From: Cellulosilyticum lentocellum DSM 5427
GTDB lineage: Bacteria > Bacillota > Clostridia > Lachnospirales > Cellulosilyticaceae
Direction of reading: 5' to 3'
Assembly (NCBI RefSeq): GCF_000178835.2
Contig: NC_015275.1
Location: forward strand, 1,261,001-1,325,000
DNA: 64,000 nucleotides
Shown here: one piece after another, positions 22,250 through 58,081 of the stretch
Position numbering within the stretch: position 1 is the stretch's first letter
Layout: the number at the start of each line of letters is the position of its first letter
Notes under the pieces: model-generated
Told to the model about the DNA's origin: nothing
The model's database searches: none
What the model saw: the letters and a program-made list of their open reading frames with translations, nothing else
Position numbers and translations under genes: made by a program

Positions 22250-22320
22250 GCGGGTGTAGTTCAATGGTAGAACTTCAGCCTTCCAAGCTGACTACGTGGG
22301 TTCGATTCCCATCACCCGCT
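22250..22320 (+). tRNA. tRNA-Gly (TCC), copy 1
   Basis: 71 bases. Acceptor GCGGGTG/CACCCGC, anticodon loop CTTCCAA, T-loop TTCGATT. CCA is not encoded. Identical to copy 2 at 22816. Confidence 0.96.
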
Positions 22321-22325
22321 CTTGT

Positions 22326-22399
<74 letters not shown>

Positions 22400-22403
22400 G
22401 TAT

Positions 22404-22478
22404 GGTGGGTATAGCTCAGTTGGTAGTAGCACTGGATTGTGGTTCCAGGTGTCGTGGGTTCGAGCCCCATTACCCACC
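22404..22478 (+). tRNA. tRNA-His (GTG)
   Basis: 75 bases including the extra 5' G typical of tRNA-His (22404), which faces C73. Acceptor GTGGGTA/TACCCAC, anticodon loop TTGTGGT. The D-arm reads GCTC then GTAGC where GAGC is normal: one inserted T breaks the last D-stem pair. Confidence 0.93.
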
Positions 22479-22509
22479 TTTTATTATGGACAAACGTACA
22501 TAATAATGT

Positions 22510-22581
22510 AGGGTTATCGCCAAGCGGTAAGGCACAGGATTTTGATTCCTGCATTCGGAGGTTCAAATCCTCCTAGCCCTG
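22510..22581 (+). tRNA. tRNA-Gln (TTG), copy 1
   Basis: 72 bases. Acceptor AGGGTTA/TAGCCCT, anticodon stem CAGGA/TCCTG with loop TTTTGAT. Differs from copy 2 in the variable region and at one T-loop base. Confidence 0.95.
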
Positions 22582-22604
22582 TTAGGACATTTGTCCTATG
22601 GTTT

Positions 22605-22677
22605 GGGTCACTAGCTCAGTCGGTAGAGCACTTGACTTTTAATCAAGTTGTCCCGGGTTCGATTCCCGGGTGGCTCA
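22605..22677 (+). tRNA. tRNA-Lys (TTT)
   Basis: 73 bases. Acceptor GGGTCAC/GTGGCTC with G-T pairs, anticodon stem CTTGA/TCAAG with loop CTTTTAA. Confidence 0.96.
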
Positions 22678-22707
22678 TTCTTAACTCAATAGTTAAGGTT
22701 TTAATAT

Positions 22708-22789
22708 GCGGGCGTGGCGGAATTGGCAGACGCACTAGACTTAGGATCTAGCGCCGCGAGGTGTAAGGGTTCGACTCCCTTCGCCCGCA
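22708..22789 (+). tRNA. tRNA-Leu (TAG)
   Basis: 82 bases with the long variable arm of class II tRNAs. Acceptor GCGGGCG/CGCCCGC, anticodon loop CTTAGGA. Confidence 0.96.
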
Positions 22790-22815
22790 TCATTAAATAA
22801 ATATGCATAGTATAT

Positions 22816-22886
22816 GCGGGTGTAGTTCAATGGTAGAACTTCAGCCTTCCAAGCTGACTACGTGGGTTCGATTCCCATCACCCGCT
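22816..22886 (+). tRNA. tRNA-Gly (TCC), copy 2
   Basis: Exact repeat of copy 1 at 22250. It starts a Gly-Arg-Gln block that repeats the earlier part of the operon. Confidence 0.96.
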
Positions 22887-22891
22887 CTTAT

Positions 22892-22965
<74 letters not shown>

Positions 22966-22971
22966 GTATAT

Positions 22972-23043
22972 AGGGTTATCGCCAAGCGGTAAGGCACAGG
23001 ATTTTGATTCCTGCAGACGGAGGTTCGAATCCTCCTAGCCCTG
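22972..23043 (+). tRNA. tRNA-Gln (TTG), copy 2
   Basis: 72 bases. Same stems and anticodon as copy 1 but the variable region reads GACGG, not TTCGG, and the T-loop has G in place of A. The last tRNA of the operon. Confidence 0.95.
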
Positions 23044-51040: not shown

Positions 51041-51053
51041 AAAAAGTAGTGCA
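51041..51053. terminator. Left half of a terminator split by an IS element
   Basis: AAAAAGTAGTGCA is the left arm of a hairpin whose right arm, TGCACTACTTTTTT, is at 52724-52737. Removing the IS and one target copy restores a hairpin with a ten-base loop and a T6 tail, between two convergent genes. Confidence 0.85.
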
Positions 51054-51063
51054 CTTCATGTGG
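51054..51063. repeat. Target site duplication, left copy
   Basis: CTTCATGTGG, identical and in the same orientation as 52714-52723. A length of 10 bp is usual for the IS231 group of IS4. Confidence 0.92.
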
Positions 51064-51105
51064 CAATGTCATTAAGTTAACATTGTGATAGAAACGCATC
51101 CCTAG

Positions 51106-51144
51106 GAAAAGAAGTTGAAGATTTATTTCTTCAGCTTCTTTTTC
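51106..51144. terminator. IS-internal terminator-like hairpin, left end
   Basis: GAAAAGAAGTTGAAGA (51106-51121) pairs with TCTTCAGCTTCTTTTTC (51128-51144) with one G-T and one bulge. It has A/T tracts on both sides and lies downstream of the transposase stop. Confidence 0.75.
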
Positions 51145-51210
51145 TATTTCCAGGTACCACAAATAGACAGATTTGCATCTGCCTCAAAATTTATATTCTT
51201 TTACAAAGAT

Positions 51211-52527
51211 TTATGCTACTCTATAAAGGAAGCCATGAAAAAGCTTGATAGTTAAGTTTCGTTCCCTATGCCTATTAGGCCGTACAGGAATGAGATTTCT
51301 TGCGATTATGACTTCTAAATCAGGTGATGTTGCTTTTCCATGATAGAATAACCTACACATATGCACTGCAACTGAGAAATTTGCTTTATATGTATGCTTT
51401 CTTTGCTTTTTTTCAATGACTACGTGCCATGTAATCATTTCTGCAAAGTTATACATTATCATATGTGCATAGATTTCTTGTTGGATACACATCACCTTTT
51501 TTGAATGAAAATCTAACATTCCAATCGTATATTTCAAATCTCGAAAAGATGTTTCAATCCCCCAACGAGAAGCATACAGTTTTTTTACCTCATCAGGAGG
51601 ATACTTTTCACTATTTAGATTTGTAACTATTGTTTCATAGGAAGTTTCTGAAATAGGAAATCTCACTATTCGGAAGTGTAATTCATAGAATTTAGCAGGT
51701 TCAGATTTCTTGTTTTTAAGTGGTAAATAATCAAACGGTTGGGCTGAAGAAACACTTCGATAATGATTTTTGTCTTTGAAAAGTTCTTTGACTGCATTCG
51801 TTTTCTTTCTTGTAAGTTTTAAAGAAATATCAATATCAAAACAGTCTGTTTTGGGTAAATCCAATCCATTCTTTATACCATTAATTCCATCTTTGACACG
51901 AATAAGAAAGAACCATCCTTTTTCTTGAATGTGAGCCATGCTGTTGAAAGATTCATAACCTCTATCAGCTATCACGAGTGCTTTAGGAATTTCAGAACGA
52001 TCAACCATTTCTTGTAGAGCGTTATGTTCATTCTTTTCTTTAGATTTTTGTATTATCACATCATGATAAATAGAATAATTTATATTATACAATGCATTTA
52101 TATGCAGAAGATTATATGATTTTCTTCCATCTTTTCCAGAATGAAATGAATTTAAATCATCAGGATTGGTAGGAATCTGTACATCAGACCCATCAACAGC
52201 AAGTATGGGCATATCTTCATTAAAGTTATCTATAAGTTTACTTGAAAAGCCGTCAAATATCTTCTTAAACGCTTCGGGCTTTATCTTTTTCCTCTGCTGA
52301 ACAAACGCAGAAGAAGTGGGTGTATCTGCAGATGCACCAAATAGATCTAATAATTCGTTTGTAAGGCTCCCACTTCCCATTCCAATAATTCCAGCTAAAA
52401 TTTTATTCATGGGCAATTTTCTTTTGCGTAAAAAATCACTACCTGGATTGGTACAATAATCTTGCGGATTGTCAGCTAACTTTTGGATTTCATCTACTAA
52501 AAGCTTTTTAATTTGTTTGGGTTTCAT
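51211..52527 (-). CDS. IS4-family transposase
   Basis: The 438-residue DDE transposase has the first catalytic Asp in ILAVDGSDVQIP, the second in ALVIADRGYES, and the IS4 signature YASRWGIETSFRDLK, which is the Y-(2)-R-(3)-E-(6)-K motif holding the catalytic Glu. I start at ATG 52527, where AAGGAGG lies six bases upstream; the frame extends to 52593 but that part is a stem-loop leader. The frame is unbroken, so the element may be active. Confidence 0.95.
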   Translation of the reverse strand: MKPKQIKKLLVDEIQKLADNPQDYCTNPGSDFLRKRKLPMNKILAGIIGMGSGSLTNELLDLFGASADTPTSSAFVQQRKKIKPEAFKKIFDGFSSKLIDNFNEDMPILAVDGSDVQIPTNPDDLNSFHSGKDGRKSYNLLHINALYNINYSIYHDVIIQKSKEKNEHNALQEMVDRSEIPKALVIADRGYESFNSMAHIQEKGWFFLIRVKDGINGIKNGLDLPKTDCFDIDISLKLTRKKTNAVKELFKDKNHYRSVSSAQPFDYLPLKNKKSEPAKFYELHFRIVRFPISETSYETIVTNLNSEKYPPDEVKKLYASRWGIETSFRDLKYTIGMLDFHSKKVMCIQQEIYAHMIMYNFAEMITWHVVIEKKQRKHTYKANFSVAVHMCRLFYHGKATSPDLEVIIARNLIPVRPNRHRERNLTIKLFHGFLYRVA

Positions 52528-52537
52528 ATGTGTCCTC

Positions 52538-52611
52538 CTTGTAACTAAGTTTCCTTTAATTACAAGGGCCGCTCTCACTACCTCTTTATTCAATCAGTAG
52601 TGAGAGCGGCC
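52538..52611 (-). promoter_or_regulatory. Leader hairpins ahead of the transposase start
   Basis: GGCCGCTCTCACTAC (52567-52581) and GTAGTGAGAGCGGCC (52597-52611) form a 15-bp stem. CTTGTAA (52538-52544) pairs with TTACAAG (52560-52566), and its stem overlaps the edge of the ribosome site at 52534-52539. Such leaders commonly restrict transposase translation from outside transcripts. Confidence 0.65.
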
Positions 52612-52644
52612 GCACATTTTCTTTGTCTTGTCAACTACTTTTTC

Positions 52645-52689
52645 AAAAAAAGATCCCTATACCATTTGATTGGTATAGAGATCTTTTTT
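52645..52689. terminator. IS-internal bidirectional terminator, right end
   Basis: A 17-18-bp stem built on CTATACC/GGTATAG and AAAAAAGATC/GATCTTTTTT, with A and T tracts on both sides. It would stop transcripts entering from the chemoreceptor side. Confidence 0.85.
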
Positions 52690-52713
52690 CGTCATCTTAA
52701 CTTAATGACATTG

Positions 52714-52723
52714 CTTCATGTGG
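52714..52723. repeat. Target site duplication, right copy
   Basis: CTTCATGTGG, the exact match of 51054-51063. Confidence 0.92.
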
Positions 52724-52737
52724 TGCACTACTTTTTT
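52724..52737. terminator. Right half of the split terminator
   Basis: TGCACTACTTTTTT, complementary to the arm at 51041-51053, now 1.67 kb away. It lies 15 bp after the chemoreceptor stop. Confidence 0.85.
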
Positions 52738-57847: not shown

Positions 57848-58081
57848 AATACAAATACATCTATGATGAGAAGAAGTATAATCTTAACTCCAGAGAGTAA
57901 GCATTTAGCTGAGAGCTTACATGAGATTAGAAGACATCTCGGAGAGAACTCTTGAAATAGTAGTAGGGAGTAACGTTTAAGCCCCGTTATCGGCTAAAGA
58001 AGAGCAAAGACTTAAGGTCTTTGAAACAGGGTGGCAACACGGTTATATCGTCCCTGACAATTATGTCAGGGGCGTTTTTTA
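57848..58081 (+). promoter_or_regulatory. T-box riboswitch of hisS-aspS, specifier GAC (Asp)
   Basis: The leader has the T-box order. Stem I has the distal hairpin GTAAGC/GCTTAC (57897-57920) and the GAA-NNN-A specifier context at 57930-57936, where the codon is GAC (57933-57935). Stem II with a TAACG/CGTTA pseudoknot region and stem III AAAGAC/GTCTTT follow. The T-box sequence AGGGTGGCAACACGG is at 58028-58042. The UGGN bulge reads TGGC, expecting a tRNA with G73. tRNA-Asp has G73; the tRNA-His in this window has C73. An intrinsic terminator follows at 58049. Confidence 0.9.
58049..58081 (+). terminator. T-box intrinsic terminator
   Basis: CGTCCCTGACA (58049-58059) pairs with TGTCAGGGGCG (58064-58074), then T6. 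It forms when charged tRNA leaves the antiterminator unsupported. Confidence 0.92.

Follow-up and report, generated by a model that had tools for sequence, protein, structure and literature searches.

In the genome of Cellulosilyticum lentocellum DSM 5427, an insertion sequence (IS) separates the two arms of a terminator-like hairpin, which raises the question of whether such elements choose these places and, if so, by which property the transposase would recognize them. The element, a complete IS of 1650 bp from the IS4 family, lies in the window analysed here, a 64,000-nucleotide stretch of the genome, between convergent genes for a cytidylate kinase-like protein (PF13189) and a chemoreceptor (PF00015). 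It ends in 17-bp inverted repeats, CAATGTCATTAAGTTAA, and is bordered on either side by the same 10-bp sequence, CTTCATGTGG; outside these copies, AAAAAGTAGTGCA on the left is complementary to TGCACTACTTTTTT on the right (Table 1). When the flanks are joined without the IS, they form a hairpin that had been split at its loop and that has the stem-loop and T-tract of an intrinsic terminator, being preceded by A5 and trailed by T6. The joined flanks contain 14 paired positions around an axis that is the exact centre of the duplication. Of about 398,000 positions sampled across this genome, 0.064% have an equally strong palindrome (score of at least 14) no more than 2 bp away; this background covers all positions rather than intergenic ones alone. 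The preliminary description of this locus had given the positions of the IS, of the duplicated 10-mer and of the flanks, which are correct on re-reading the sequence; its claims that the site lies between convergent kinase-like and chemoreceptor genes and that removal of the IS restores a terminator-like hairpin with the target site as its loop are also borne out. Judged by their form, the split hairpin and the hairpins carried by the IS itself are probably transcription terminators.

Table 1. Features of the IS and of its insertion site, in window positions.
Feature	Position	Strand	Basis
Left half of the split hairpin (A-tract and arm AAAAAGTAGTGCA)	51041-51053		sequence, joined flanks
Left copy of the target duplication, CTTCATGTGG, the hairpin loop	51054-51063		sequence
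IS4-family insertion sequence of 1650 bp (six genomic copies)	51064-52713	-	genome search, profile match
Terminal inverted repeat CAATGTCATTAAGTTAA, end downstream of the transposase gene	51064-51080		sequence
IS-borne terminator-like hairpin facing the kinase gene	51103-51146	+	hairpin scan, folding
Terminator-like hairpin behind the transposase gene	51165-51184	-	hairpin scan, folding
Transposase, 460 aa from TTG	51211-52593	-	DDE_Tnp_1; NF033592, 180.2 bits (cut-off 115)
Leader hairpin between the transposase promoter region and the ATG	52567-52611	-	folding
IS-borne terminator-like hairpin facing the chemoreceptor gene, covarying in relatives	52644-52691	-	alignment, folding
Terminal inverted repeat, end upstream of the transposase gene	52697-52713		sequence
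Right copy of the target duplication, CTTCATGTGG	52714-52723		sequence
Right half of the split hairpin, TGCACTACTTTTTT	52724-52737		sequence

Elsewhere, the window holds a T-box leader (57854-58058) and, at 22250-23043, a cluster with 9 of its 12 tRNA genes found through Rfam. Downstream of the TTG start of the transposase, an ATG at 52527 behind AGGAGG can be read off the sequence. The protein matches the profiles PF01609 and NF033592 and contains the Y(2)R(3)E(6)K motif by pattern match (YASRWGIETSFRDLK), and the target duplications of the six copies in the genome measure 10, 10, 10, 12, 10 and 10 bp, about one helix turn, as in the IS4 family. The motif, the NF033592 match and the length of the duplication thus assign the element to this family, as first described. 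Its further description as IS231-type is wrong, because the ends miss the CAT start and match the signature of the IS4 subgroup. In particular, Table 1 of PMC2266710 gives for the IS4 subgroup ends of the form -AATR--------WTW----, a length of 1400-1650 bp and a duplication of 10-13 bp; CAATGTCATTAAGTTAA fits this signature by eye, and 1650 bp and 10-12 bp fit as well. The ends listed there for the IS231 subgroup are CAT-------AA--TAA---, of which the AA and TAA positions do fit, while the third base is A, not T. Compared with the insG product of E. coli IS4, the transposase is 19% identical over the aligned part only (E 4e-16), and in a tree of 50 transposases IS4 sits on a very long branch (8.5), the focal element belonging to a group of 25 rows with support of 98/96. 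Within the collections searched, ISfinder being outside these, the closest named relative is IS1675, with 43.6% transposase identity; a sequence search of solved structures gave no match.

Six full copies of the IS are present in the genome (one contig of 4,714,237 bp), the window copy differing from each of the other five at 7 positions. At all six, the duplication centre coincides with a palindrome axis or misses it by 0.5 bp, with scores of 14, 14.5, 19, 18, 6 and 17.5 and long stems at five of the six sites. The weak site (L005) has a short stem and a T7 tract on one strand, and its score of 6 is reached within 2 bp at 2.8% of background positions. Palindromes were scored by an axis scan, which catches two sites (L033 and L105) that are missed when the arms must be flush with the duplication. 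Copies with no palindrome at the target, which the preliminary description had seen as speaking against its proposal, were not encountered: the five outside the window are likewise centred on palindromes, of which one is weak. The stems of the six sites are six different sequences, so that the IS does not have the single conserved repeated target typical of REP-targeting elements. No ORF of at least 80 aa is interrupted by these copies; their neighbouring ORFs are convergent in four cases, of the same direction in one and divergent in one.

Sites free of the IS were sought with the kinase as query in seven genomes of the genus, the own genome included. In three congeners (G001, G003 and G005) the kinase is 62-65% identical and adjoins a related chemoreceptor (56-59%); in each, the interval between the two genes is without any IS and carries a strong hairpin at the 3' end of the chemoreceptor gene, with a second hairpin adjoining the kinase in G001. 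The letters of the stem differ among the three species. Three genomes were left out of this comparison, namely G002 (kinase matched in two parts), G004 (truncated at a contig end) and G006 (no match). All three relatives examined with the same gene pair thus carry a hairpin there, and the contrary case named at the outset, an empty site that lacks it, is not among them.

A scan with the transposase returned 43 loci, mostly from Butyrivibrio, Pseudobutyrivibrio and other Lachnospiraceae, together with two from Treponema and Cellulosilyticum ruminicola. Eleven of them, complete at both ends and in both flanks and with an exact duplication of at least 8 bp, were scored; a further 10 have both flanks without an exact duplication, and 22 are missing an end or a flank. 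The best palindrome axis, in a scan of 20 bp each way, lies within 2 bp of the duplication centre in 11 of the 11 scored relatives, and 9 of these sites reach a score of at least 8; L008 and L032 score 4, as do 24% of background positions. No palindrome was found where one was sought at the site of L106 (43% identity). Genome G002, which is C. ruminicola by the identity of L033/L051, holds 48 matches, including L051-L079, many of them decayed copies.

The property common to these sites was assessed by an arm shuffle, in which the right arms are redealt among sites and the make-up of every column is preserved. The arms of the own six sites pair at 59 of 72 positions against 41.5 (sd 4.8) after shuffling, a value reached in 23 of 10,000 shuffles. 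The counts are 79/132 for the unselected 11 sites (shuffled 55.3, sd 5.2), 138/204 for the 17 sites together (88.2, sd 6.54) and 323/516 for all 43 sites with a duplication, three repeats being dropped and clades with other targets included (169.2, sd 11.6); none of these three was reached in 10,000 shuffles. The evidence on pairing is taken from unselected sets, a shuffle of 28 sites picked after inspection being set aside, and an RNAfold hairpin classifier is too lax to speak of rarity, as it calls a hairpin at 835 of 4000 background positions, 383 of them also with a tract. Since redealt arms lose their pairing, the property common to the 17 sites is self-complementarity rather than a sequence motif. 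The early suggestion that a hairpin loop is a target preference of this IS is supported, with six of six own and 11 of 11 relatives' sites centred, and it is very probable that the clade selects its targets by self-complementarity, at the axis of a palindrome.

Across related transposases, the same or nearly the same ends go with different targets, and relatives below about 41% identity have other targets, some without any palindrome. Five elements from Lachnospiraceae (L114, L115, L117, L119 and L121; 35-41% identity) are inserted at GTTAC[T/C][GTTCAnnnn], where no excess of arm pairing was found (18 of 60 pairs vs 16.2), and a palindrome was sought at L112, L123 and L127 and not found. On these two results, hairpin targeting as a rule for the whole transposase group was rejected. 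The flanks of L116, L118, L148 and L153 resemble GTTAC[T/C][GTTCAnnnn] sites, with no clear duplication. Elements of 33-35% identity from two genomes have palindromic sites in five of five cases, of the type GGGGACGGGGTT[..]AACCCCGTCCCC or GGGGACGTAG.A[..]TACTACGTCCCC. Related ISs, L130, L149-L151 (G598) and L147 (G699), are found at the axis of GGGGACG..CGTCCCC palindromes that resemble a repeated intergenic element.

Named elements place the focal IS further. IS1675, from Lactococcus plasmids and IS4-like according to NCBI, shares its 17-bp ends, 10-bp duplications and a palindromic target; unlike the focal IS, it uses one near-fixed palindrome, RRGTATACYC, and not a class of terminators, the 10 loci read representing 7 distinct sites with junctions all near that sequence. 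E. coli IS4, also of the IS4 family and with duplications of 11-14 bp, was read at 13 loci, picked mostly for multi-copy records, of which 12 were resolved into 8 distinct sites. Five of these are terminator-like hairpins (glgP, bamD-raiA, gnsA/cspG, tdk-adhE and pdxK-crr), the site at yicI is an imperfect palindrome inside the gene, and at two, the resident K-12 site and paaE, no palindrome was found. With its low identity, its other ends and three of eight sites palindrome-free or imperfect, E. coli IS4 differs from the focal IS, and it shows a weaker form of hairpin targeting. According to an older paper, IS4 is said to occur in the pheS,T attenuator as well.

Insertion at the axis of REP palindromes has been published, including for the IS4-family ISRm22 (PMC1525189); as with the focal IS, ISRm22 and the IS3-family elements IS1397, ISKpn1 and ISPsy8 go into extragenic palindromes, at the axis or close to it. 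REPs are one conserved repeated sequence per genome, whereas the target stems of the focal IS vary by site. Group IIC introns insert by a terminator stem-loop or another inverted repeat (PMC7923331), but they are RNA-based retroelements that land beside the stem-loop, unlike a DDE transposase acting at the axis. IS30 prefers nearly palindromic hot spots; it differs in family and mechanism, and a tie to terminators is not seen in the available text of PMC9333248.

The same genome also carries three IS3-family elements (NF033516), here groups A to C, and an IS1182-like element (264.9 bits, cut-off 270). A PF00872 profile search of the genome gave no match, and further matches to PF01609 (L137, L138 and L140) and to PF00665 (L182-L185) stand outside this comparison. 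None of the six group A copies lies at a palindrome, and duplications are unclear in three. ORFs of at least 80 aa cross an end of five of the six, including a chemoreceptor gene interrupted in its signalling domain and an ORF resembling the gene of another IS, and the genome therefore tolerates ISs in ORFs. Group B (L177-L181, five of five copies) and group C (L175-L176, two of two) lie in terminator-like hairpins with 3-bp duplications, so that more than one IS family lands in such hairpins. A search with group B returned 30 loci, 26 of them outside the own genome, and 16 of the 26 have both ends and a duplication of at least 3 bp; 9 of these 16 scorable relatives have a palindrome score of at least 9 within 6 bp, and no palindrome was found near L210, L212 and L229. 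A partial group B copy is also present in the own genome. The IS1182-like element (L139 and L141-L144), which makes no duplication, has two of five copies in strong AT-rich palindromes and three in weak ones or none.

The focal IS also brings hairpins of its own. Terminator-like hairpins near both ends, already noted in the preliminary description, stand up to folding of the window copy, with -25.5 kcal/mol (z -8.2) on the side of the kinase gene and -28.2 kcal/mol (z -9.5) on that of the chemoreceptor gene, and they recur in relatives. At the end upstream of the transposase gene, an alignment of 29 relatives shows a hairpin and a T-tract, in which 14 of 15 pairs occur in at least two Watson-Crick types, with some broken cells, among rows that are related and from which the fold itself was derived; this variety of pairs speaks for a kept structure. 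At the downstream end, 16 of 20 elements have terminator-like hairpins by a simple scan, 11 with one facing transcription from outside, and the consensus fold contains 4 pairs only, the hairpin not being aligned. Since each end hairpin faces one neighbouring gene, transcription from either gene would run into a new terminator within the IS, and the end hairpins may also shield the transposase gene. The leader hairpin comprises 16 pairs (z -7.9), and its starting letters, GTGCGGCCGC, recur in many relatives.

As to the mechanism, the transposase would insert at the axis of a palindrome and duplicate the surrounding 10 to 14 bp, the palindromes hit by the focal clade being, as it appears, mostly terminator-like stem-loops with A- and T-tracts. 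Most likely the transposase itself reads the dyad, in the form either of an extruded hairpin or cruciform or of a bent duplex with symmetry. The excess of pairing over the make-up of the columns favours a reading of self-complementarity, and a reading of the duplex is kept alive by the A/T tracts and by IS1675 with its fixed palindrome. A transposase dimer that reads symmetric double-stranded DNA (A-tract, GC-richer arms, T-tract and bend) and never an extruded hairpin, terminators being the commonest such sequence, comes close to an even chance in our estimation. It would explain the preference for A to the left of the duplication and for T to its right, 8-12 bp outside it, the AAA and TTT flanks that the hairpin-free E. 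coli IS4 sites keep by eye and the one near-fixed palindrome of IS1675, as expected of a duplex reader; however, pairing lies far above column make-up, and the stems vary in letters, the half-site in common being limited to the A/T tracts. We tentatively consider, at somewhat less than even probability, that the transposase recognizes a hairpin or cruciform by its structure and independently of sequence, and that terminator homing arose separately in the IS4 and IS3 families as a safe-site strategy with replacement terminators. Insertion behind genes, together with the imported terminators, would lower the cost to the host.

Coupling to transcription, in which RNA polymerase stalled at terminators exposes the DNA, is improbable: the targets of the focal clade do resemble terminators, but insertions are centred on the axis of the DNA, and sister elements hit palindromes that do not have the form of terminators, such as GGGGACG..CGTCCCC and GGGTATACCC. 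It is harder still to credit that insertion is random and that harmless intergenic copies alone persist. The intact ORFs around the six focal copies agree with such a bias, but group A copies in the same genome have ORFs across an end in five of six cases, even if one of these ORFs resembles the gene of another IS, and selection for intergenic positions leaves centring to 0.5 bp unexplained. An accidental landing of a single IS in a hairpin, which has nothing in its favour beyond the single site, is negligible in probability and was rejected on the centring of all scored sites, own and relatives', and on the arm-shuffle result.

Palindrome-hitting ISs are known mainly for one repeated sequence, for example REP, whereas the target here is a structural class, the terminator-like hairpin, with no conserved stem letters. 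A search of the open-licence literature, with older subscription papers outside it, brought up no account of terminators serving as a target class for ISs; a published figure may already show part of it. The combination of near-identical ends with differing targets (terminators, GGGTATACCC, GGGGACG palindromes and GTTACTGTTCA) would make the target-reading part of the DDE transposase mappable by swaps. If true, the targeting of terminator-like hairpins predicts the landing places of such ISs and, together with the hairpins at their own ends, may let an IS of rumen and gut bacteria spread without gene breakage.
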